This document shows positions 2,250 to 26,387 of a stretch of DNA of 27,900 nt, one piece after another; position 1 is the stretch's first letter; every line of letters starts with the position of its first letter. Source of the stretch: a virus; the IMG/VR virus record IMGVR_UViG_3300050130_000120, positions 1 through 27,900 of that record. One strand, given 5' to 3'. Position numbers and translations under genes: made by a program. The notes under the pieces are model-generated. The model was not told where the DNA came from and ran no database searches. It saw nothing but the letters and a program-made list of their open reading frames with translations.

Positions 2250-2878
2250 CGTTCTTCAGGGAATGGATGAAGCGCTGGCAAGAGCGCAACGCTCATGCGG
2301 TTGGCTACCGCTTCGGCGATGCGCCCACGGCGGACGAGGTCGCGGCGCAGGCCGCCGAGCATGCGCGCTGGAGCGAGAGAGAGAACGCGCTGCGGGCGGC
2401 CATTGCTAGCGATTTTCGATGGCCGTGTCATTCGCGTCCAAAGGGGGAGTGGTGCGCTCGCGAAGGGCCCGGCGGGTTCATTGCGCACACCTGCCGGCGG
2501 CCAGACGAGGACGAGGTCGCGGCGCCGGCCGTCTGGACCATCCGGTACGAGCAAAGGTCGCCTGACTGCGGCCTTACGGTGGCGCAGCACGCCCGGCTCG
2601 CGGAGCTGATCGAGGAGTGCGGCGAGGTGGTGCAGGCCGCGGCCAAGGTGCTCCAGTGCGGCTACGACGAGCGCTCGCGTCACGGGAAGGGCATGCCGCG
2701 GCGGGTCCTGCTGGAGCGCGAGCTGGGGCACCTGGAGGCGTCGCTCTCGGTGCTGTACGGCTCCGGCGACGCGCGGCGGTCTCAGGTACGCGTCTGGAAG
2801 GAGCGGCGGCTCGGCGTGCGGCATGCGTCCCCCGCGGCGGCTCCGACTTTGCGGCAGGAGAGCGAAGCGAGCCAGTGA
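2246..2878 (+). CDS. MazG-like all-alpha protein (putative nucleotide pyrophosphohydrolase relative)
   Basis: A 210-residue protein starting in an ATGA overlap. Residues 113-172 have the layout of phage MazG-like proteins: 'ARLAELIEECGEVVQAAAKV' with the metal-binding ExxE pattern (E123/E124/E127), a charged loop, then 'LLERELGHLEASLSVLYG'. In active MazG-type enzymes the second helix normally carries ExxD ('ELGDL'); here the last position is His162, so catalysis may be altered or lost. The N-terminal 110 residues contain a compact part with Cys61, Cys70 and Cys83 that I do not recognise. If active, such enzymes hydrolyse (d)NTPs to monophosphates. The C-terminus is Arg/Ala-rich and likely disordered. 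Confidence 0.6.
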   Translation: MTFFREWMKRWQERNAHAVGYRFGDAPTADEVAAQAAEHARWSERENALRAAIASDFRWPCHSRPKGEWCAREGPGGFIAHTCRRPDEDEVAAPAVWTIRYEQRSPDCGLTVAQHARLAELIEECGEVVQAAAKVLQCGYDERSRHGKGMPRRVLLERELGHLEASLSVLYGSGDARRSQVRVWKERRLGVRHASPAAAPTLRQESEASQ

Positions 2879-3966
2879 AAGACGTCGGGGCAACACGGAC
2901 GATCCGCGTCCGGGACAAGCGGAAGCCGGGGCACTGCTGGCAGGATAACGAGCTCTATGACGTTTTCCAGCCCGTCATCGGTGCCACCGCCACACACATC
3001 TATGCCGCGATGAGCCGGTGGGCTTTCGGACATCGCGTGGAGATGGGCATGAGGGAGATCGCTGTCGAATCCGGAACCAGCCGCAGCGCGGTGCAGCGTG
3101 CTTTGGTCGCCATGGAGCGGCTGGGCATGGTGCGCGGGGTGGCGGGGCGCGGACCGCAGCCGGCAGCCTACAACCTGCTCGACCTGAAGGAGGCCTCCAT
3201 CGCGCTTGGCGCGGAGTGGAATCCTCATCGAGCGTCGCACGGCCTGTCGCCGACTCGGGTTGCCGAGCTGCGAACGGCCGTCCTGCATTGCGTCCCATAT
3301 GGGGACACAAAAGCCGGTGGAAATCTCCCGGATTGTGTCCCACACGGGGACGCTTCTGGGACGCTACTGTCCCAGAAAAGGGGGGTTAGTGTCCCACACA
3401 GGGACGCTCATCTTTATATATATAAACAAGACACAAGACTACAAGACAACCATCCCCTACCCCTTCCGCCAGCGGAAGGGGGGCTGCGCGATGAATCGGA
3501 TTCTTCGGACATCGCACCAGCGGAAGGGGGGCTGCGCGATGAATCGGATTCTTCGGACATCGCACCAGCGGAAGGGGGGCTGCGCGATGAATCGGATTCT
3601 TCGGACATCGCACCAGCGGAAGGGGGGCTGCGCGACGAATCGGAATCTTCGGACATCGCGCTGGACCGCGAAGCGCAGCGGGTGCTGCGAGCCTGCGGAT
3701 CGACCTCGGACGGGGTGCTGCGCGTGATCCGCAAGCAGCTGGCGGAGCGTGTGCGCCCGGCGACGCCGGAAGGGCTCACGAAAACGGCGGAGTGGATGAT
3801 CGCGATGTGGGAGGACTACCGCACATGCGGCGATCGCGGCTGGCTGCGGTTCGTCTGGGGACCGCGCAAGTTCTTCGGCGATGGGCACTGGGCGAATTGC
3901 GCGCTGTGGCCGATCGATGAAGAGCGCCGCGAGATGTACGGCAGGGCTCGGGAGGGTGCGCGATGA
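2875..3966 (+). CDS. Replication initiator-like protein with N-terminal winged helix, gene carries candidate origin
   Basis: A 363-residue protein that I start at GTG 2875 (GTGA overlap with the preceding stop). The frame is open further upstream, but that part is Arg/Ala-rich shadow of the previous gene. Residues about 25-103 look like a winged helix-turn-helix: 'IYAAMSRWAF', then 'MREIAVESGTSRSAVQRALV' as the HTH, 'MERLGMVRGVAGRG' as the wing. Residues 140-177 are encoded by three iteron-like palindromes, followed by an AT-rich palindrome; residues 199-262 are four copies of a 16-residue acidic repeat ('PAEGGLRDESDSSDIA'). The C-terminal 100 residues include aromatic helices ('WMIAMWEDY', 'WLRFVWGPRKFF') like the C-terminal parts of phage replication proteins. 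The plan (DNA-binding head, origin in the middle, partner-binding tail) parallels lambda O. No helicase gene is visible, so recruitment of host helicase is inferred only. Confidence 0.7.
   Translation: MKDVGATRTIRVRDKRKPGHCWQDNELYDVFQPVIGATATHIYAAMSRWAFGHRVEMGMREIAVESGTSRSAVQRALVAMERLGMVRGVAGRGPQPAAYNLLDLKEASIALGAEWNPHRASHGLSPTRVAELRTAVLHCVPYGDTKAGGNLPDCVPHGDASGTLLSQKRGVSVPHRDAHLYIYKQDTRLQDNHPLPLPPAEGGLRDESDSSDIAPAEGGLRDESDSSDIAPAEGGLRDESDSSDIAPAEGGLRDESESSDIALDREAQRVLRACGSTSDGVLRVIRKQLAERVRPATPEGLTKTAEWMIAMWEDYRTCGDRGWLRFVWGPRKFFGDGHWANCALWPIDEERREMYGRAREGAR
3292..3450 (+). other. Candidate phage replication origin (iterons plus AT-rich palindrome)
   Basis: Three 15-bp imperfect palindromes of the form GTCCCAYAYRGGGAC lie at 3292-3306, 3337-3351 and 3391-3405. 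Between the second and third is an inverted arrangement of the same half sites: CTGGGAC and GTCCCAG with a 6-base spacer (3356-3375), a perfect 7-bp inverted repeat. Immediately downstream is a 14-bp perfect palindrome TTTATATATATAAA (3413-3426) and a C/A-rich low-GC stretch, in otherwise GC-rich sequence. Iterons next to an AT-rich unwinding element inside the initiator gene is the lambda-type origin design. Origin function is inference from this layout. Confidence 0.65.
3469..3660 (+). repeat. Four tandem 48-bp repeats
   Basis: Four head-to-tail 48-bp units start at 3469, 3517, 3565 and 3613. The first three are identical as read; the fourth has three substitutions. Each encodes the 16-residue acidic unit 'PAEGGLRDESDSSDIA'. 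They sit directly after the AT-rich element and inside the initiator-like gene. They may be a flexible linker at the protein level or an expanded part of the origin at the DNA level. Confidence 0.9.
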
Positions 3967-6567: not shown

Positions 6568-6825
6568 GTGGCAACTGTGCATCTCGACGAAGAGTGGCCG
6601 AAGGCGAAAGGCACAGTCGAAGTGATGCTCGGCCGGCACAGCGCGCTGCTTGACGGCAACGGCAACGGTGAGCGCGGGCTCGTGAGCGTGGTGGCACGGA
6701 TACAGACCGAAGAGACGATTGTGCGGGATCGGCAGCACAGGATCAATCAGCGCTGGATGCTGCTCGTCGCTCTGATTCCGGTCCTGATTAAAGTGCTCAC
6801 GATGATGGGCTGGTTGCCGAAATAA
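6568..6825 (+). CDS. C-terminally anchored small membrane protein, haemolysin XhlA-like shape
   Basis: An 85-residue protein starting at GTG 6568, directly after the previous stop. A charged, helical N-terminal part ('ARIQTEETIVRDRQHRINQR') is followed by one hydrophobic segment at about residues 63-82 ('WMLLVALIPVLIKVLTMMGW'). This soluble helix plus C-terminal anchor is the shape of XhlA-type proteins beside phage lysis genes. It sits immediately before the endolysin (one-base overlap). A lysis accessory or holin-related role is likely by position, but the similarity is architectural only. Confidence 0.6.
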   Translation: MATVHLDEEWPKAKGTVEVMLGRHSALLDGNGNGERGLVSVVARIQTEETIVRDRQHRINQRWMLLVALIPVLIKVLTMMGWLPK

Positions 6826-7385
6826 TGGCGACGCCTGAACAGGTGGAGTTCCTGCGGAGGGCTTGCGGAGCGGCCCGGCTCGCGCATCACGTTTGGTCCG
6901 AATACGCAGCCTGCGAAGCGGCGCTCGAAACAGCGTGGGGGACGTCGCGGCTGTATCTGCAGGGCAACAATGTCTTCGGCGAAAAGCAGCACGCGAAGCC
7001 GGTGTTTCTCACGGTGACGCTGCCGACGCGCGAATACCGGTACGGCGTGGGCTGGATCACGGTGCAGGCGCCGTTTATCTGGTTTCCGTCGCCGATTGAG
7101 GCGTTCGAGATGCGGATGCAGACGCTGCGGCGGCTGGCGGTGGAGAAGAACAGCGCCGGCGAGCTCGAATATCCCGAATATGCCGCGGCGCTGGCCGCGA
7201 CGTCGGGAGAAGCGTTCGTGACGGAAGTTTCAAAGCGCTGGTCGACGGATCCCGAGCGCGGCGCGAAGGTGCTGGAGATCTTCAACGCGCACATGGATGT
7301 GTTTGCGCAGAGCGCGAACCAGGAGGAAGGCAAATGGGCAGGCAACCGATATCGATTTCAGGCGGCAACGCGACGCCGGCAGTGA
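6825..7385 (+). CDS. Endolysin, GH73 glucosaminidase-like
   Basis: A 186-residue peptidoglycan hydrolase candidate. The signature is at residues 30-53: 'CEAALETAWGTSRLYLQGNN' followed by 'VFGEK', matching the GH73 N-acetylglucosaminidase pattern (family 'ALExxWG...NNxFG'). Glu35 is the predicted catalytic acid. Length fits a single-domain endolysin. There is no signal peptide or signal-anchor, so export would need a holin; two candidates follow directly. The reading frame's last 52 bases overlap the next gene, and the C-terminal tail is basic. In the cell it would cleave the glycan strands of the host wall at the end of infection. Confidence 0.8.
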   Translation: MATPEQVEFLRRACGAARLAHHVWSEYAACEAALETAWGTSRLYLQGNNVFGEKQHAKPVFLTVTLPTREYRYGVGWITVQAPFIWFPSPIEAFEMRMQTLRRLAVEKNSAGELEYPEYAAALAATSGEAFVTEVSKRWSTDPERGAKVLEIFNAHMDVFAQSANQEEGKWAGNRYRFQAATRRRQ

Positions 7386-18777: not shown

Positions 18778-19161
18778 ATGAGAAAAAATCAGCCAGGCGG
18801 TTCTTCGGAATTTTCCGATCCGACGTTGCCGGAGACCTACGTCGACATCGACGGCGAGAAGTTCAGGTTATGTTTCGATTTCGCGGCGCTGGCGCAGGCG
18901 AAGAGAAAGCTGCAGGAGCAGGGCGTGGAGATCAACATTCTCCACTCGCTCAACTTTTACACGCTCGACGTGGACACGCTCGCTGCGATCTTCTACGCGG
19001 CGGCGCACCGCTTCCATCCAAAGATGGAATGGTCGAAGGCGCAAAAGCTCACGAATCTGAGAACTGGAGCGGCGATCATTGAGGGTCTGGCGGCCGCCTA
19101 TGCCGCAGCGATGACCGACCCAAAGAGAAACCCTCGGGAGGGGACGACACAGAAAGCCTGA
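18778..19161 (+). CDS. Tail assembly chaperone, short (G) product
   Basis: A 127-residue protein starting at ATG 18778; the longer open frame upstream runs through the terminator and is not coding. Landmarks are 'TYVDIDGEKFRLCFDFAALA', 'LDVDTLAAIFYAAAHRFHP' and 'AAIIEGLAAAYAAAMTDP', matching the tail chaperones that precede tape measure genes. In lambda this is gpG, a scaffold for the tape measure that is not in the virion. Near its end is the heptamer CCCAAAG in the correct phase for -1 slippage into an open frame with no start codon of its own. Confidence 0.8.
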   Translation: MRKNQPGGSSEFSDPTLPETYVDIDGEKFRLCFDFAALAQAKRKLQEQGVEINILHSLNFYTLDVDTLAAIFYAAAHRFHPKMEWSKAQKLTNLRTGAAIIEGLAAAYAAAMTDPKRNPREGTTQKA

Positions 19162-19553
19162 GCGAGCAGGAGCTCTGGCTGCATCTCTGGTCCGTCGCCC
19201 GATACGACCTGCATCTCAGTGATGCCGACTTTTTCCGGCTCACGCCGCGCAAGCTTGACGCCCTGCTGACCCGAAGAAGGGCCGGTGTTGAGCGCAACGA
19301 GCTTCTTTTCGCTCAGCTGACTGAAAAGGCGGTGAATTACAGCGTCAGAGCGCCCAAGGATCCGGCGCGGATTCAGGATTTCATGCCGTCGCAGTGGGTG
19401 GCCGACGTGAAGAGGAAGGCGGCGGTGCCAGACATAAGCAAGCCGGTTCGCATGACCGCGTGGCGGCGCAGGGAGGTAGCCGACAACTGGCGTCGGTTCA
19501 TGAGCAGCGGCTTTGCCGGCTATACGACGGTGGAGACGCCGGACGCGGGATAG
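18778..19553 (+). CDS. Tail assembly chaperone, long (GT) product via -1 frameshift
   Basis: Reading zero frame to AAG at 19123-19125 and slipping back one base continues from 19125 as 'EKPSGGDDTESLSEQELW' and stays open to 19553. The product is about 258 residues. The extension contains 'LHLSDADFFRLTPRKLDALL' (Trp/Leu/Pro-rich pattern common in T-type domains) and 'MTAWRRREVADNWRRFMSSG'. The -1 frame has no ATG between 19125 and 19332, so ordinary initiation would produce only a fragment. Lambda-type phages make gpG and gpGT this way, with the T part binding the tube protein. The slip itself is inferred from the heptamer and frame arrangement. Confidence 0.78.
19119..19125 (+). other. Slippery heptamer CCCAAAG for -1 frameshift
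   Basis: C-CCA-AAG in the zero frame of the chaperone gene fits X-XXY-YYZ. Re-pairing after a one-base shift would be CCC and AAA. The zero-frame stop lies 36 bases downstream and the -1 frame is open for another 429 bases. Confidence 0.8.
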
Positions 19554-19565
19554 TGGGACTGCCAG

Positions 19566-19574
19566 TGGTATACT
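19566..19574 (+). promoter_or_regulatory. Extended -10 promoter of cargo gene 1
   Basis: TGGTATACT: an extended -10 (TGn) joined to a near-perfect TATACT, 24 bases before the start codon at 19598. No recognisable -35 is present, which extended -10 promoters tolerate. Confidence 0.6.
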
Positions 19575-19597
19575 GCCGACGGCTTTCCGGAGGAAAC

Positions 19598-20026
19598 ATG
19601 TTGAAGCTGCTGGCAGTTATAAGTTTGCTAACTTGCGCGATAGGTCATGCGCAGTCCGCGCCGACTATCTTCATCGACGCCGACAGTACCTTCGCGCCGT
19701 CGATCACGGCGGCCATGATCAGGAAACATGTTCCGGTGTCGATTGTCATCGACCCGGAGCATGCGGAGTACGTGCTGAAGGCTGCACCGGTCATGTCGAA
19801 AGACGAGAGCGGCGCGGGGAAGGTCGCGAGGTGCCTGTTTCTGGACTGCGCGGGCATGAACGGTTTCTCGGCCGTGTCGGTGCAGTTGGTGCGAACGAAA
19901 GATAGCTCGGTGGTGTGGGCGTATCAGGTGCGGAAGGCCATGAGCGGGCCGGCGGGGCTGCAGTCGCTGTCGGAAGCGATCGCCAAACACTGCAAGGACG
20001 ATTACCTGAAAAAGCATTCCGAATAA
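19598..20026 (+). CDS. Moron: exported protein of acidobacterial type
   Basis: A 142-residue protein with ribosome site GGAGGAAAC. Residues 1-18 are a Sec signal peptide (cleavage after GHA before Gln19). The mature part reads 'PTIFIDADSTFAPSITAAMI', 'HVPVSIVIDPEHAEYVLKAA', 'KVARCLFLDCAGMNGFSAVS', then 'SVVWAYQVRK' and 'SLSEAIAKHCKDDYLKK'. This order closely recalls a family of small secreted proteins I know from Terriglobia genomes; function unknown. It has its own promoter and sits between tail chaperone and tape measure, a place where morons are common. It may alter the surface of a lysogen or infected cell. The host assignment is from memory, not a search. Confidence 0.7.
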   Translation: MLKLLAVISLLTCAIGHAQSAPTIFIDADSTFAPSITAAMIRKHVPVSIVIDPEHAEYVLKAAPVMSKDESGAGKVARCLFLDCAGMNGFSAVSVQLVRTKDSSVVWAYQVRKAMSGPAGLQSLSEAIAKHCKDDYLKKHSE

Positions 20027-20040
20027 CCGGTTTGTGGGAC

Positions 20041-20068
20041 TTGACATCCCTGGAGGGGGTGCTATCCT
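20041..20068 (+). promoter_or_regulatory. Strong sigma70-type promoter of cargo gene 2
   Basis: A perfect -35 TTGACA (20041-20046), 16-base spacer and TATCCT (20063-20068). The start codon at 20096 follows with GGGAGAG as ribosome site. This is the best promoter in the window and drives a single gene that ends in a terminator. Confidence 0.75.
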
Positions 20069-20095
20069 GGCGGTTCTGGAAGGGAGAGTCTCCCC

Positions 20096-20356
20096 ATGAA
20101 GCTCGCAGGATGGGTCGCGATCGCGGTTGCGGTGCTGTTACTGGGCGCGGTGTTCGTGCAGTGGAGGAACGACACGGAGGCAGCGGCTGAACGTATTCAG
20201 CGTGGCTTTGCGGAGATATCCGCCGGGGATAGCGCCGCGCTTGATGCCGATTCCGCGCGAGCGGATGCAGAGAGGAACATGTGGACCATCGAGGGCATCG
20301 CCGGGGCCGGCTTCCTCGTGGCGGGGCTGGTCATGCTGCGGAAGCGAACCGCTTGA
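20096..20356 (+). CDS. Moron: small two-segment membrane protein
   Basis: An 86-residue protein with its own promoter and terminator. Hydrophobic segments lie at about residues 4-22 ('AGWVAIAVAVLLLGAVFVQW') and 65-81 ('IEGIAGAGFLVAGLVMLRKR'), separated by an acidic, Ala-rich helix ('DSAALDADSARADAERN') of about 40 residues. The ends are positive, placing both termini probably in the cytoplasm. No family recognised. The self-contained transcription unit marks it as a moron expressed independently of late genes, perhaps in the lysogen. Superinfection exclusion is a common job for such proteins, but nothing here proves it. Confidence 0.7.
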   Translation: MKLAGWVAIAVAVLLLGAVFVQWRNDTEAAAERIQRGFAEISAGDSAALDADSARADAERNMWTIEGIAGAGFLVAGLVMLRKRTA

Positions 20357-20381
20357 GTTAAAAGGAAAGTAACGAGTTTTG

Positions 20382-20409
20382 AAGCCGCCTTTCGGGGCGG
20401 CTTTCTTAT
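20382..20409 (+). terminator. Intrinsic terminator closing the moron unit
   Basis: AAGCCGCC/GGCGGCTT is a perfect 8-bp stem with loop TTTCGG (20382-20403), followed by TCTTATT. It lies between the moron and the gp10-like gene. Confidence 0.85.
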
Positions 20410-20422
20410 TGGAGGCACGGCG

Positions 20423-20980
20423 GTGGGCGGGTTCACAATCCAAATCGAGGGCTTGCGTGAGCTCGATGCGAAGCTCAGCGAGATGAAGGACTCTCAGATC
20501 AAGCGAGTAATTCGTCACGGGCTCGATGCCGGTGGCGAAGCGATGAGGCGGTCCATTGCCGAAGCGGCGCCAGAGAGGCCGGATCTGCCCAGCGGCGACG
20601 CGCTCCCGGCCGGAGCCATGAAGCAGGACATTGAAGTTCGACGCGGGCGATTCGAGGGGCTGCTGGCTGTGTTTGTGGGGCCGGGGAAGTACACGCGACG
20701 CCAGGCGGGATGGGTTGAATACGGTCATCGGCTGGTGCGCGGCGGGACCTCCCAATTGAAGAGGACGATCTTCGGAAACGTGAAATATAAGGGCCCGGGC
20801 TCGGAGGTGGGTGAGGTGAAAGCTCACTCTTTCATCCGTCTGGCCTATGAAGGGTTTCGCGAAGAAGCGGTGCAGGTGGCTGTCGATACGATGCGGCGGG
20901 ATGTCAAGCTGGGCGCGGTGCCAAGTTCCGTCTACGAAGGGCGTGGGGCGGAAGACAACTACACCGGGGAGGACTACTGA
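20423..20980 (+). CDS. HK97 gp10-like neck/tail-component protein, displaced
   Basis: A 185-residue protein starting at GTG 20423 with GGAGG upstream. Family landmarks are 'FTIQIEGLRELDAKLSEMKD' at the N-terminus, 'GLDAGGEAMRRSIAEAAPER', and 'AGWVEYGHRLVRGG' with the later 'AHSFIRLAYEGFREEAVQVA', typical of HK97-gp10-like proteins (residue-level 'E-G/YGT...H.F.RPA' pattern). In most related phages it lies between head closure and tail terminator; here it sits after the morons and directly before the tape measure (one-base overlap). Function is in head-tail joining or tail completion. Confidence 0.75.
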   Translation: MGGFTIQIEGLRELDAKLSEMKDSQIKRVIRHGLDAGGEAMRRSIAEAAPERPDLPSGDALPAGAMKQDIEVRRGRFEGLLAVFVGPGKYTRRQAGWVEYGHRLVRGGTSQLKRTIFGNVKYKGPGSEVGEVKAHSFIRLAYEGFREEAVQVAVDTMRRDVKLGAVPSSVYEGRGAEDNYTGEDY

Positions 20981-23541
20981 TGGCCGAGGCGGGCAGTGTA
21001 AAAATCATCTTCGCGGCAGATGCGACCAGCTACAGTGCCGCGCTGTCCTCGATGCAAAAACAGATGGACTCGTTCGCCGCCAAAGCCGGGGCGGCGGGGC
21101 GGAGCGGCGCGGCTGCCGGGCATGGCATGGTTGCGCCCTGGCAGGCCTCATCGGCCGCATTGCGTGTTGCCGAAGGCAACATGACGAACAATATCCGCGC
21201 CGCGGAAAGGTTCCTCGCCACGATTCCTGGAGTGGGCCGCGCGTTGCAGGTGGCCTTCCCGGTTGTCGGAGCCGTCGCCCTTCTGGGCGTATTTGCGCGA
21301 ATGGGCAACGAGGTTGTGGACTTCATCAAGAAGACGAACAGGATCCCGCAGGCGCTGGAGACTGCCTTTCGGGAATCGTTGCTGAGTGGTCAGTCGGCGG
21401 CCGACGAGCTCCAGAAGGAGAACGATGCCCTCGACAATCAAATCGCGAAGCTCGAGGGACGGCCGCAAAACAATCTGGCCACGGCGATCGACGACGCGCG
21501 TATCGCGGCCGATAAGTTGGAGCAGTCGCTCATGCGCGACAATCGCGAGATTGCGGAGCTGCTGAAGCAGAACCAAATTGGGTCGCTCGGCGAGCTGCTC
21601 ACCGGTAAGGGGCGAACGACGGCCGTCGCGGGAGACGTCAACTACTGGAATCAGGAGCTGGCGAATAAGGCGAAGGATTTCGACAAGGCGGTGCACGCAT
21701 TCGGACCGGACAGTGTGCAGGCGAAGTCGGCGCAGACTGCACTCGCACAGCGGCGACAGGCGGCGGAAGCCAACATGCAGATGGAGATCGACGTTCGCAA
21801 GCCCAGCCCCGACCGTGCGGCGAACATTACCGGCGACCAGGACCCGAATCTGAACATCGCCCAGGGCTATCTCGCGATTCTGCAGCAGCAGGACAGAATG
21901 GACAGCCTGAGCGGGCAGCACGAGCAGAAGAAAAGCGTTGCGGATGCGCTGACCCACGCGCGCGAGCTACAAGCCGCGGCAAAGGAGCGCGGTGCTCAGC
22001 AAATGCAGGCGTGGGAGAAAGAACTTTCGGAGCAGAAGTCGAAGCATGTCATGAGCCTCGACGAGGATGCAGATTTTTGGCAAAAGCGTGCCGACAGCGT
22101 GACGAAAGGCTCAATGCTGTACACTGACGCGCTGAAAAAGGCAAATGATTTGCGTGCCGCGAGTCAGGTCCAGTATCAGCAGGAGTTCACCGGAGACGTG
22201 ATCGAGAAGATGCGCTCCGGAGAAGCGGGCGACTCGTCGAGCGATCGCGTGCACGCCGCGCTGCAGGAGCAGTATGTCGGCGACGACACGCACGAGCGAG
22301 AGATCAAACGCCAAACGGAGGAGGGCGCCACGCGCGCCTTCGCTGCGGCCGAGCAGCAGCGCAAGGCGGCGGATAGCCTCGCGGAGGAAGCGATCCGGCT
22401 GCAGGAGCAGAGCGGGCAGCTCTCCCGCGCCGGCGCCGCGCAGGCCCTGATGACGGTCCATCAGGAGAGCTTTGCGAACTGGTCGGCGGCGTCCGCCTCG
22501 TTCTCGGCGCAGTTCCCGAATCTGGCCGTGCCGGGCGCGACGCAAGCCCTGCAGGAGTACGGGAAACAATCGCAGCAGGATGAAGCCGCGCAGGAGGCCA
22601 CAACCTCGCTGGGTGCGCTGCGCGAGGCGACGGATCGCATGACGCAGGCCTTCACGGATCTGCCCGCGCACCTGACGCAGCTGATGACGAGCGCCATCAG
22701 CGGCTTCAATGAGGCGTTCTCCAGTGCGGTCATGGCGCACACCACGAGCGGCGTCGAGTATCGCCGCGGGATCACGAATGCGGTGGGTGGCCAGTTCCGC
22801 TCGCTGGGCGCAAAGGGCCTCGATTCCGCGTTGCAGATGGGCGAGGGCGGCCTGATGTCGAAGCTCGGCTTTGGCAAGTCGAAGCCGACCGGGACGCAGT
22901 CCGATCCGCTTTTTGTAAGGTTGATCGCAGCAGCGGGCGCCGCCGGCGGAACTCTCGACAGCACGGGAGCTGGGTCGCTGCTGCTGAGCGCGCTGGGCGC
23001 ATCGGGTCCCGCGGGCACCACGGGCAGCAGCAAGGGCAGCTTCCTCTCCACGGTGCTGCCGGCGCTGACGCAAATGATTCCGCACCGCGCCTCGGGCGGT
23101 CCGATTCCGGCGAATACGCCGGCGATCGTCGGCGAGAATGGGCCGGAGCTGTTCATGTCGAGCCGGGCCGGTCACATCGTGCCCAACAGTGCGCTGGGCG
23201 GCGCGCTCTCGAAAGTGCTGCCGGCGCTGACGCATATGATTCCCGGCTTTGCCTCCGGAGGCCCGATTCCGTCGAACATGCCGGCGATCGTCGGCGAGAA
23301 CGGGCCGGAGCTGTTCATGCCGGCGAGCTCCGGGCGCATTGTGCCGAACGGAGACTTCGGAGGCGGCGCCGGCGGTGGAGACACGCACGTCCATGTGGAC
23401 GCGCGCGGCGCGCACGATCCAACCGCGACCGAAGCCGCCGTGCATCGCGCCATGAAGTCGTACCTGCCGCACCTGGACGCGCGCACGATCGCCACGGTGC
23501 GGGCCTACAACAAGGCGCGGCCGGGAACGGCGCGACTGTGA
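20980..23541 (+). CDS. Tape measure protein
   Basis: An 853-residue protein, the typical long, helical gene after tail chaperones. Residues 1-60 ('VKIIFAADATSYSAALSSMQ') match the conserved start of many tape measures. A hydrophobic segment lies around residues 88-107 ('LQVAFPVVGAVALLGVFARM'), followed by long Gln/Ala/Glu-rich coiled coil to about 560. The C-terminus carries two copies of 'ASGGPIP' ... 'PAIVGENGPELFM' ... 'G-IVPN', a motif common at the end of tape measures, duplicated here at a 162-bp period. At the usual rule of about 1.5 angstrom per residue the tail would be near 130 nm. It sets tail length and is ejected before DNA. Confidence 0.9.
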   Translation: MAEAGSVKIIFAADATSYSAALSSMQKQMDSFAAKAGAAGRSGAAAGHGMVAPWQASSAALRVAEGNMTNNIRAAERFLATIPGVGRALQVAFPVVGAVALLGVFARMGNEVVDFIKKTNRIPQALETAFRESLLSGQSAADELQKENDALDNQIAKLEGRPQNNLATAIDDARIAADKLEQSLMRDNREIAELLKQNQIGSLGELLTGKGRTTAVAGDVNYWNQELANKAKDFDKAVHAFGPDSVQAKSAQTALAQRRQAAEANMQMEIDVRKPSPDRAANITGDQDPNLNIAQGYLAILQQQDRMDSLSGQHEQKKSVADALTHARELQAAAKERGAQQMQAWEKELSEQKSKHVMSLDEDADFWQKRADSVTKGSMLYTDALKKANDLRAASQVQYQQEFTGDVIEKMRSGEAGDSSSDRVHAALQEQYVGDDTHEREIKRQTEEGATRAFAAAEQQRKAADSLAEEAIRLQEQSGQLSRAGAAQALMTVHQESFANWSAASASFSAQFPNLAVPGATQALQEYGKQSQQDEAAQEATTSLGALREATDRMTQAFTDLPAHLTQLMTSAISGFNEAFSSAVMAHTTSGVEYRRGITNAVGGQFRSLGAKGLDSALQMGEGGLMSKLGFGKSKPTGTQSDPLFVRLIAAAGAAGGTLDSTGAGSLLLSALGASGPAGTTGSSKGSFLSTVLPALTQMIPHRASGGPIPANTPAIVGENGPELFMSSRAGHIVPNSALGGALSKVLPALTHMIPGFASGGPIPSNMPAIVGENGPELFMPASSGRIVPNGDFGGGAGGGDTHVHVDARGAHDPTATEAAVHRAMKSYLPHLDARTIATVRAYNKARPGTARL
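23053..23376 (+). repeat. Two diverged 162-bp repeats in the tape measure C-terminus
   Basis: Units beginning at 23053 and 23215 both start GTGCTGCCGGCGCTGACGCA and both encode the GGPIP / IVGENGPELFM / IVPN motif. They differ at scattered positions, so the duplication is older than the 24-bp and 48-bp repeats of the early region. Confidence 0.8.
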
Positions 23542-23605
23542 GGCTTTTCGTCGTTGGACGAGCACTTTACGTTCACTGCGCCAGACAGGGCGCGCGAAAC
23601 ACAAC

Positions 23606-23637
23606 AACAGCTCCGCTCACCGCGGGGCTGTTCTTTT
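23606..23637 (+). terminator. Intrinsic terminator between tape measure and fibre gene
   Basis: AACAGCTCCGC/GCGGGGCTGTT forms an 11-bp stem with one wobble pair and a 5-base loop (23606-23632), followed by CTTTT. It separates the exported fibre-like gene from the tail operon; I see no convincing promoter in the 110-base gap, so the fibre presumably relies on read-through. Confidence 0.75.
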
Positions 23638-23651
23638 GGGGGAGATCTCCG

Positions 23652-26387
23652 ATGAAACGCTGGATTCCTGGCGCGCTCGCCGCGCTGCTGCTGCTGCCGT
23701 GCGCCCTCGCGCAGACGGGCTACGTGACGATGACGGCGGCCAATCTGATCGACCAGAGCGGCGGCGGAGCCACGATCACGAATGCGACGGCGACGTTCTG
23801 TCTCGTGAATGCCGGCGGCACGCCGATCGGCGTGCATATCGGTTCGAGCTCCGGCGGCCAGGCCGCGCCCCGCTGTTCGTCGGGCCCGGTGAATAACGGC
23901 GCGCTGGTTGGGACGTGGCAGGCGGCCGACCCCACCGCCGCGGGCACGAATCTGGTACCGGACCCGATCCTGACGAGTTGGACGACGTGGTCGAATCCTG
24001 GGGCGGGCTGGAGCATTCAGCCAGGCTCGGTAGGGCTGGCGGGCGTCAATTTCTTCCAGTTAAACACGTCCGCGAATGGCACGAACGCGTATTCGCAGTC
24101 TGCTGCGATTACGGTGGTTCCAGGGCAGACCTATACGTTCACGGGGTATATGAACGCCCTTGATGTCACTGCTGGCAGCTTGTATTGGCAGGTGTGGGCC
24201 GAAGGTTCGGGGACGCAGTTGGGCGCGGTTGCGGCCACGCTGGGTGCGGTGGGGGGTTATTACACTGTCCAGTTCACTGTGCCGAGCGGGGTGACATCCG
24301 TTCTGGTGCGAGCCGTGATCAACTCGCTGGCGATTACGTCCGGTAACACCGCCGCATTCGCGGCACCGCTGCTGCAGGCCGGCAGCGCGCGGCTCGTCGA
24401 TACCAACCTCAGCAACCCGCAGAATCCCTGCTATCAACTCACGGTCACCGACAACACCAGCGGCAGCGTCCTGCTGGGCGGACCGGGATCCGGGTACAGT
24501 TGCCTGCAGCCGCAATGGACGGAAAGCTCGCCGATGAGCTGCGTCGCCGGCCTCTGCAACCTTGACAGCTATATCCCGACGACTACGCCCGGGGTGATGA
24601 TCGGGCTCGCCGGGCCAGTGGGTCCCACAGGGGCCACAGGGGCAACGGGGGCGACTGGAGCGACTGGGCTATCCGGCTCTGTCTCCGCTGCGGGGTCGGC
24701 TGGAACTGTGCAAACATCCAACGGCGCGGGCGGATTAAGTGCGGCAACGGTTGCGAACCTGGGCGCGGCTCTCTCCGATTCGAACGGGAATTATGTCCTG
24801 AATCGCTCTCCGACGTGGCCGATTAACAGCCTTCAGTCCGGGGCGGTGCTTCTCGGTGGCGCGTGCCCGCTGTATGGCAGCGGATCGCCAACGGCTGCCC
24901 AGGAAGGCGTGATTTGTATTGGTTGGCAGGCGGGGCAAAACCTGCTCTATGCCAACGGGAGTGTGTACATCGGCAATGATGCCGGGCAGTTTAAGGTAGG
25001 CTCAGCAAGCCTGGGCGGTGAAGATGGCAACATGACCTGCGTAGGTTCCTTCGCCTGTCAGGCGGACACTACCGGCGCAGAAGACGTTGTGTACGGGATG
25101 AAAGCCTATGAATTCGGCACGGGTGAGAACAGCAGCGTAATCATCGGAAACCACAACTACTACGAAGGCGGCGGGACCGATAACATCGACATAGGTTCGA
25201 CGATTGCAGACTGGGCCAACACAGCCGGTACAAACACTACATTCCTGGGAGGCACGAACAACGTCAACCTGGGTTCCCAGCTGTTTGCGGCCACCGGCCT
25301 GACCCCGAGTACAACCTATGTCGAGACGCAATCGACGGTTGTAGGGTCCGGCGCGGGAGGCTGCCTCTTTAACACGGGTCCCAATCTTCTGTTGGGCGCT
25401 GGCGTGGCTGGGCCAGACAACGCCAGCGGTCTAGGTTCCCCATATCCGTGCACGGGCACACTGCCAACTGCACAGTACAACATCTTCATCCAGCCCGGGC
25501 CGAATGGGACAAACCCTAATGTAGGGCATTCCATCACAACAGGGTCCGCCAACATCGCGATGGGAACCGGCGGTACCTCAAACCCCTGGGGCGTCCCCGG
25601 TTCAGCACTGACGAGTGGCAACGGAAATACGATCCTTGCCGCCGGAGCTGGGGCAAATGCCACGACAGCGAGCTGGCTGTCTTTGTATGGCATGGAAGCA
25701 GGGAGTGCACTGACCACGCCCAGCGGCATCAGTGCTTTCGGCGCGTGGGCACTCTATCGCTTGCAGACGGGCACACAGGACAGCGCCTTTGGGTTCCACG
25801 CCTGTGATGCGGCCACGGGCAGCGAGTCGCAGGATACCTGCCTTGGTGACACTGCCAATATTGTGGCAGGAGCGTCCAGGGCAACGGTGATTGGCCAGGC
25901 GGCCACAGCTGCGTATCAGAGCCTGGTCCTGGGGTACAGTGCATCAGACGCGGGCAGCAACGGTACCAATGTTGTGATCGGATATTATGCCGCGTGCACA
26001 GGTTCCGGTGAGCAATACAACACCATCCTGGGTGGCTCCTGCTCGGGCACTGGGACACAATATTCCCTCGCTTTAGGCTCTCATTCGGTTGTAGCAGCAT
26101 CCGATGCTACGGAGATCAATGACAGTGGAGCTACAGCCACCAACAGCACCCAGCACACGCTCCAGTATGACTCGTGGAATTTTCTGACGAGCAGCGGAGC
26201 AGCCACCTTTCTAACTGCCACGATCACCGGGGCCGCGCCCAGCGTCACCACGGGGCAGCTTGGCATCGGCAGCAGCACGGTCACGACGGCGACAGCGGGA
26301 GCCGCCACGCTGCCCGCTAACCCACTAGGCTTTTTAACCTGGAATCTCGCCGGTACCGCCGTCAAGGTTCCGTACTACAGCAACTAA
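23652..26387 (+). CDS. Exported fibre-like protein: signal peptide, CBM-like domain, collagen-like stalk, YadA-like head
   Basis: A 911-residue protein. I start at ATG 23652 (GGGGGAG site; a signal peptide begins at once) rather than GTG 23538, which would run through the terminator. Residues 1-20 are a Sec signal peptide cleaved before Gln21. Residues about 100-245 look like a carbohydrate-binding beta-sandwich ('NLVPDPILTSW', 'VVPGQTYTFTGYMNAL'). Residues 321-341 are seven Gly-X-Y collagen-like triplets. Residues about 430-860 are Gly/Asn/Ala-rich short repeats ('SVIIGNHNYY', 'VIGQAATAAYQSLVLGYSA', 'YSLALGSHSVVA') like YadA/Hep_Hag beta-rolls. Paired cysteines fit an oxidising compartment. 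This is a trimeric receptor-binding fibre in style, but Sec export is odd for a virion protein; it may instead be a surface adhesin. Confidence 0.75.
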   Translation: MKRWIPGALAALLLLPCALAQTGYVTMTAANLIDQSGGGATITNATATFCLVNAGGTPIGVHIGSSSGGQAAPRCSSGPVNNGALVGTWQAADPTAAGTNLVPDPILTSWTTWSNPGAGWSIQPGSVGLAGVNFFQLNTSANGTNAYSQSAAITVVPGQTYTFTGYMNALDVTAGSLYWQVWAEGSGTQLGAVAATLGAVGGYYTVQFTVPSGVTSVLVRAVINSLAITSGNTAAFAAPLLQAGSARLVDTNLSNPQNPCYQLTVTDNTSGSVLLGGPGSGYSCLQPQWTESSPMSCVAGLCNLDSYIPTTTPGVMIGLAGPVGPTGATGATGATGATGLSGSVSAAGSAGTVQTSNGAGGLSAATVANLGAALSDSNGNYVLNRSPTWPINSLQSGAVLLGGACPLYGSGSPTAAQEGVICIGWQAGQNLLYANGSVYIGNDAGQFKVGSASLGGEDGNMTCVGSFACQADTTGAEDVVYGMKAYEFGTGENSSVIIGNHNYYEGGGTDNIDIGSTIADWANTAGTNTTFLGGTNNVNLGSQLFAATGLTPSTTYVETQSTVVGSGAGGCLFNTGPNLLLGAGVAGPDNASGLGSPYPCTGTLPTAQYNIFIQPGPNGTNPNVGHSITTGSANIAMGTGGTSNPWGVPGSALTSGNGNTILAAGAGANATTASWLSLYGMEAGSALTTPSGISAFGAWALYRLQTGTQDSAFGFHACDAATGSESQDTCLGDTANIVAGASRATVIGQAATAAYQSLVLGYSASDAGSNGTNVVIGYYAACTGSGEQYNTILGGSCSGTGTQYSLALGSHSVVAASDATEINDSGATATNSTQHTLQYDSWNFLTSSGAATFLTATITGAAPSVTTGQLGIGSSTVTTATAGAATLPANPLGFLTWNLAGTAVKVPYYSN

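Follow-up and report, generated by a model that had tools for sequence, protein, structure and literature searches.

An island of two genes, A and B, between the tail chaperone and the neck gene of a probably temperate siphovirus of Acidobacteriota is almost certainly a phage moron cassette, ordinary in kind, to judge from the 27.9-kb virus record analysed here (the window) and its relatives. The explanation favored for the whole (rough probability 55%) is that this cassette alters the envelope of the lysogen, likely for superinfection exclusion. It consists of promoter and gene, promoter and gene, and terminator, inserted between two late tail genes. In the prophage, with the tail genes silent, A and B would be transcribed from host-type extended −10 promoters; A would be exported to the periplasm, B would reside in the membrane, and together they would change the lysogen envelope. 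The most likely benefit would be superinfection exclusion at adsorption or genome entry, comparable to HK97 gp15. A and B probably work as a pair in the envelope, and exclusion of other phages as their main function has about an even chance. A literature search over titles and the beginnings of abstracts found no paper naming these cassettes.

Organization of the Island

The tail genes follow the order tail tube, chaperone, second chaperone frame, A, B, neck gene, and tape measure (Table 1). A preliminary description of the window had placed a two-gene moron island between chaperone and neck gene, and this location is borne out by matches of the flanks to PHROGs families. The classical definition of a moron applies, since the island is an insert between genes that are adjacent in relatives and carries, to judge from the sequence, its own promoters and its own terminator. 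Deviant base composition is a frequent, non-obligatory mark of morons and is absent from A and B when they are compared with window, chaperone, and neck gene: the G+C content is 0.587 for A and 0.648 for B (about window level), versus 0.638 for the window, 0.558 for the chaperone, and 0.618 for the neck gene. A DNA search of annotated phage genomes retrieved no near relatives of the window. In the left flank, the second chaperone frame is probably expressed by frameshifting at the heptamer CCCAAAG (19119–19125); this slippery sequence lies in the overlap of both frames and fits a −1 shift.

Table 1. Features of the island and its flanks (window coordinates), followed by the phage contexts in which gene A occurs; loci are given by L numbers.
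Feature	Position	Strand	Remarks
Tail assembly chaperone, first frame (left flank)	18778..19161	+	phrog_2115, E 1.7e-4; exact start codon uncertain
Second chaperone frame	19083..19553	+	−1 relative to first frame; open frame 19083–19550 plus stop; homologous in 76 of 81 rows
GTGGGACT, copy 1	19553..19560	+	overlaps chaperone stop codon; chance-level repeat
Putative gene A promoter, extended −10 (TGGTATACT)	19566..19574	+	no −35
Gene A	19598..20026	+	142-aa protein, predicted to be exported
GTGGGACT, copy 2	20034..20041	+	abuts −35 of gene B; chance-level repeat
Putative gene B promoter	20041..20068	+	TTGACA, 16-nt spacer, TGC-TATCCT (TGn extension)
Gene B	20096..20356	+	86-aa protein with two hydrophobic segments
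Predicted intrinsic terminator closing the cassette	20382..20410	+	AAGCCGCC-TTTCGG-GGCGGCTT-TCTTATT
Neck/tail completion gene (right flank)	20423..20980	+	phrog_5, E 5.5e-10
A context, window type			A then B
A context, L004	L004:3716-4420		B-like membrane part and A-like exported part in one open frame; same slot as window island; internal start possible
A context, L032 (MAG locus)			tail-anchored membrane protein gene overlaps A; same slot
A context, L006 and L007	L006:3959-4739; L007:3959-4731		A then two-segment protein, beside other phage genes
A context, L025			A alone before chaperone; contig begins just upstream
A context, L005			no membrane neighbour seen

Cargo Exchange in Two Slots beside the Chaperone

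The chaperone–neck slot was followed through the best 80 of 90 viral loci from a profile search with the neck gene, giving 81 rows with the window. Tube and both chaperone frames are present in 76 of them, and three (L130, L131, and L132) were dropped by hand for a neck match beginning inside the protein or an ambiguous chaperone call. Among the remaining 73 rows (the window and 72 of the best 80 viral loci), the gap between chaperone and neck gene measures at most 30 bases in 59 and more than 60 bases in 14. It is gene-sized in 11, namely the window, L011, L012, L013, L014, L094, L107, L114, L116, L117 (the same record as L004), and L118; the short gaps of L078, L101, and L105 were assigned no gene. 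The window, L011, and L012 cluster together and count once, which leaves nine distinct inserts; by a simple hydropathy scan, each of these codes for one or more proteins bearing a signal peptide or a hydrophobic segment.

The cargo itself is exchanged among related phages, which carry A with B, a hybrid A with a different protein (B'), B' alone, or nothing. In L013, the nearest relative with changed cargo, the promoter, the signal peptide, and the C terminus of A are kept, and the hybrid A (L013:3190-3520) has its middle removed (net 294 nt) and 198 nt (66 codons) of other sequence added, both in frame. This hybrid may be an assembly chimera; for its 66-aa insert, the fetched loci held no convincing relative (best E 0.027 besides itself). 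B' of L013 is 63% identical to B' of L014 and is a different protein from B. Judged by codon comparison, A and B' are under purifying selection, with dN/dS of ≈0.17 for A (window versus L007; dS is saturated in three further A pairs) and 0.19 for B'. The phage is probably temperate, given that an integrase, present in nine of the 13 records searched, occurs in each of the two relatives whose A and B are identical to those of the window.

A second slot lies between tube and chaperone, where 14 of the 73 rows hold inserts of more than 200 bases. Its cargo consists mostly of envelope proteins, and L013, L088, and L114 also hold cargo proteins lacking a hydrophobic segment. In L123 (2250-3045), a secreted DUF2846 protein is encoded beside a PF14373 (Imm_superinfect) protein (E 9.1e-15), both above the Pfam cutoffs, and each of the two genes has its own TGnTATACTG promoter. 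The same proteins with the same arrangement of promoters are found in L110, L111, and L112, and another DUF2846 protein occupies this slot in L078. Across the slots, the cargo is diverse, comprising DUF2846 proteins, a lipoprotein, a HIRAN-like protein, and unknown proteins.

Promoters and Terminator as Boundary Signals

The preliminary description had assigned a promoter to each cargo gene, and the sequence agrees, with a −35 box plus extended −10 at B and the extended −10 only at A. The 27.9 kb hold exactly two copies of the string TGNTATNCTG, one at each cargo gene, whereas none of 100 shuffles contained two; the promoter pattern TGnTATnCTG is likewise confined to these two sites of the window. 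When matches of 7 or 8 of the 8 fixed positions within 60 bases upstream are counted, the motif precedes 15 of 27 cargo genes (13 of 25 once the two sites that served to derive the consensus, both in the window, are set aside), compared with none of 146 tube, chaperone, and neck starts and ≈1% of random 60-mers; the other 12 cargo genes are without a strong match. The cargo list behind these counts was put together by hand, with like records represented by a single member (28 were tried and one was not located); A genes lying elsewhere than in the slots (L005, L006, L007, and L025) are part of it. At the host homologs of A, the motif (7 or more of 8) is scarce, with one case in 19, so the host-type status of the promoter is an assumption.

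Two variations on these signals were seen among the relatives. In L107, each of three cargo genes is preceded by a promoter-like stretch of similar sequence around TGGTAAGCTGAATGG, with TGATAAGCTGAACGG as a variant. In L014, L058, and L118, a −10-like element stands ≈7–9 bases before the assigned cargo start codon, so near that either the mRNA would be nearly leaderless or the true start would be further in.

A terminator after the second cargo gene had also been described, and a hairpin with a T run is indeed predicted there. It folds at −18.5 kcal mol−1 (z −3.07) and had been overlooked by a simple scan. A GCCGCC terminator, a G+C-rich hairpin with a T run, is located just before the neck gene in eight of the nine distinct inserts versus none of 37 insert-less loci; it was not found in L107. 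The MAG locus L032 has such a hairpin in the same place, its 22 nt being identical to those of the window hairpin. As boundary signals of the island, the TGnTATnCTG promoter and the GCCGCC terminator are better supported than the 8-bp repeat GTGGGACT discussed below.

Gene A, a Predicted Exported Protein of a Host Family

The product of A was originally proposed to be a host-type secreted protein, and both parts of this proposal find support. A signal peptide spans approximately residues 1–19 and ends in AQ; read by eye, the sequence LLTC followed by AIGHAQ contains no lipobox. A profile search over 397 genomes from a single acidobacterial order matched the family in 55, where its chromosomal members occur in varied contexts, for example beside glmS or fused to other domains. 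Four MAG loci with A were found by genome scan. The first scan of viral records gave seven loci (L002–L008): L002 and L003 carry an A identical to that of the window in near-identical phages, L004–L007 hold four diverged relatives, and L008 is the hybrid. A fragment at a contig end (L022) was added by profile scan. Leaving aside this fragment and the hybrid, seven phage contexts of A can be distinguished (Table 1), and in five of them A adjoins a gene for a transmembrane protein, one of these cases being the fusion in L004. In L006 and L007, which represent another phage type, the membrane gene after A is unrelated, and the pair is flanked by a fibre-like gene and by a giant gene of opposite orientation.

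Database searches with A and B returned no Pfam or NCBIfam model above cutoff, no match among the PADLOC defence models, and no convincing PHROGs match. For A, the search of BFVD gave nothing at E 0.001 or better. Its structure was modelled with AlphaFold2 from 10 sequences (mean pLDDT 68.7, pTM 0.63), and this low-confidence model suggests an LptE/CsgG/PelC/TraT-like fold. In Foldseek, LptE ranked first at E 5.5e-3, with nothing at E 0.001 or better, and TraT was matched with a probability of 0.96–0.99 over 49–50 columns. VIA placed DUF330, CsgG, PelC, TolB-N, and TraT at Z 6–7.7 (TraT at 6.3–6.5), all below 8. These structural matches are below the level of a sure match, and likeness of fold shows no function. 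At the sequence level, the best match to these periplasmic domains was PelC (5t11/5t10) at E 1.6–1.8, which is not significant. A kinship with TraT at the sequence level was considered and rejected, as Pfam showed no PF05818 match and hhalign to F TraT gave a probability of 0.6%; PF05818 was also absent from 100 genomes of the acidobacterial order. A single-sequence model of the fused protein of L004 (mean pLDDT 50.2) was set aside.

Gene B, a Predicted Membrane Protein

The reading of B as a two-segment membrane protein is upheld by hydropathy, which places a hydrophobic segment at each end of the protein. Possible host relatives of B were discounted: 14 of 397 genomes gave matches (best E 2.9e-4), which were attributed to chance, the model being that of a short membrane protein.

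Function and Alternative Explanations

The preliminary description suggested lysogenic conversion or exclusion, and this is plausible, with some support from the company that the slots keep. Envelope conversion or superinfection exclusion is inferred because the sister slot carries a gene of a superinfection-immunity family; this Imm_superinfect gene lies outside the window island, in the adjacent slot of a distantly related locus, and A and B themselves have no PF14373 match.

Among the closest precedents is HK97 gp15, which is encoded in the tail region and descends from a host protein; Cumby et al. reportedly described it in 2012 as a moron conferring superinfection exclusion. B resembles it as a predicted membrane protein encoded among the tail genes of a siphovirus that is probably temperate, as judged from hydropathy, position, and the integrase of relatives. 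The differences are that HK97 uses one gene, whereas here a predicted exported protein accompanies a two-segment membrane protein in another host phylum. Gp15 is likewise presented elsewhere as a moron-encoded membrane protein for superinfection exclusion (PMC10883804). Tab of the Pseudomonas phage JBD26 is a small late-operon moron that is expressed from the prophage and protects the lysogen (PMC10884400). It resembles the island genes as a small moron gene among late genes and shows that a late-operon moron can protect lysogens. Tab differs in lying between terminase genes and in blocking tail assembly, whereas A is predicted to be exported and B has two hydrophobic segments.

For A, the comparison extends to TraT, a surface exclusion lipoprotein (PMC11733297, PMC12658005) that is reported to block phage adsorption (PMC10433841) and belongs to a chromosomal family co-opted by mobile elements (PMC11733297). 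Beyond the Foldseek and VIA similarity of its low-confidence model, A shares with TraT membership of a chromosomal family co-opted by mobile elements. Unlike TraT, it is shorter, without lipobox or second membrane segment, and there is no significant sequence match between the two. To the periplasmic domains of CsgG, PelC, LptE, DUF330, and TolB-N, A is similar in the general α/β arrangement (Z 5–7.7), with no significant sequence similarity.

The strongest competitor, though clearly less probable, is a moron whose benefit is general conversion of the lysogen envelope (surface, stress, or nutrient traits) rather than exclusion, A adding a copy of a host secreted function. The varied chromosomal contexts of the relatives of A and the diversity of the slot cargo speak for it, whereas the quick turnover of cargo among closely related phages and the PF14373 gene of the sister slot are a better fit to an arms race.

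Improbable is a role of A and B (or the B' of relatives) as spanin-type lysis proteins bridging the envelope. In its favour, B weakly matches phrog_312, a family of Rz-like spanins (E 0.0016); in L013, L014, and L094, B' has one N-terminal hydrophobic segment, followed by a stretch resembling a coiled coil by eye; L116 has a similar lipoprotein-like protein; and the other genes of the window that were tested yielded no recognisable spanin. Against these points, B has two hydrophobic segments and A no lipobox, unlike a pair of inner one-TM protein and lipoprotein, and the endolysin gene of the window (6825–7382) is ≈12 kb away from the island. Moreover, the slot is empty in most relatives, and A has relatives on host chromosomes. 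That A and B are virion or tail-assembly proteins is a very unlikely reading, to which their place inside the tail cluster on the same strand might point: most relatives with the same tail genes lack them, and they have promoters and a terminator of their own, a signal peptide, and host relatives.

On the exclusion reading, a broader proposal can be put forward tentatively and with some doubt. Acidobacteriota temperate siphoviruses would share a "cassette grammar" in which two fixed slots flanking the tail chaperone gain and lose units made up of an extended −10 promoter, a gene for an envelope protein, and a GCCGCC terminator. A and B would then form a two-part exclusion device, composed of a host-derived periplasmic TraT/LptE-like protein and a membrane anchor (sometimes fused), that stops rival phages at the envelope. 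If this were true, candidate exclusion genes could be read from the two chaperone-side slots and TGnTATnCTG in the phages of a dominant, hardly cultivated soil phylum. The A family, a host secreted family recruited by phages, would likewise offer a first lead to its acidobacterial envelope role.

The 8-bp Repeat

The two copies of GTGGGACT are exact and lie where the preliminary description had noted them, one ahead of each unit, with no third copy in the window. Their interpretation as a bracket around the first cargo gene did not survive the controls, and the repeat is most likely a coincidence. Two or more copies were present in 10 of 100 shuffles of the window; an 8-mer common to both gaps arose in 122 of 2000 shuffled pairs and in 406 of 3900 sliding pairs matched to them in size and spacing; and the region contains 20 repeated 8-mers versus a window mean of 23. 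The copies also occupy non-equivalent places, as copy 1 falls on a stop codon and copy 2 against the −35 box of B. A shared promoter element was rejected because the distances to the −10 hexamer are unequal (16 versus 29 bases, start to start).

It had further been suggested that the sequence might mark an empty site in phages lacking the cargo, and the phages compared speak against this. The 4.8 kb of L014 include homologous flanks and a B-type cargo gene, and both A and GTGGGACT are missing from them. Both cargo genes are absent from L015, where the single copy of GTGGGACT lies on the opposite strand, ≈1.2 kb past the start of the neck gene. That the island is a mobile insertion with GTGGGACT as its target-site duplication, as the two exact copies might suggest, is extremely improbable: the repeat is at chance level and brackets A only, the island has no transposase-like frame, L014 is without both A and the repeat, and among the other listed cargo genes GTGGGACT accompanies only that of the near relative L013.

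Other Repeats in the Window

Tandem repeats of other kinds occur elsewhere in the window. A perfect 24-bp tandem duplication is found at 2076–2123, and at 3469–3659 a 48-bp unit stands four times in tandem, almost without deviation and in frame within the ORF 2617–3966. Downstream of the island, a long gene (23538–26387) contains a collagen-like GPTGATGATGATG stretch and probably encodes a tail fibre or surface protein.
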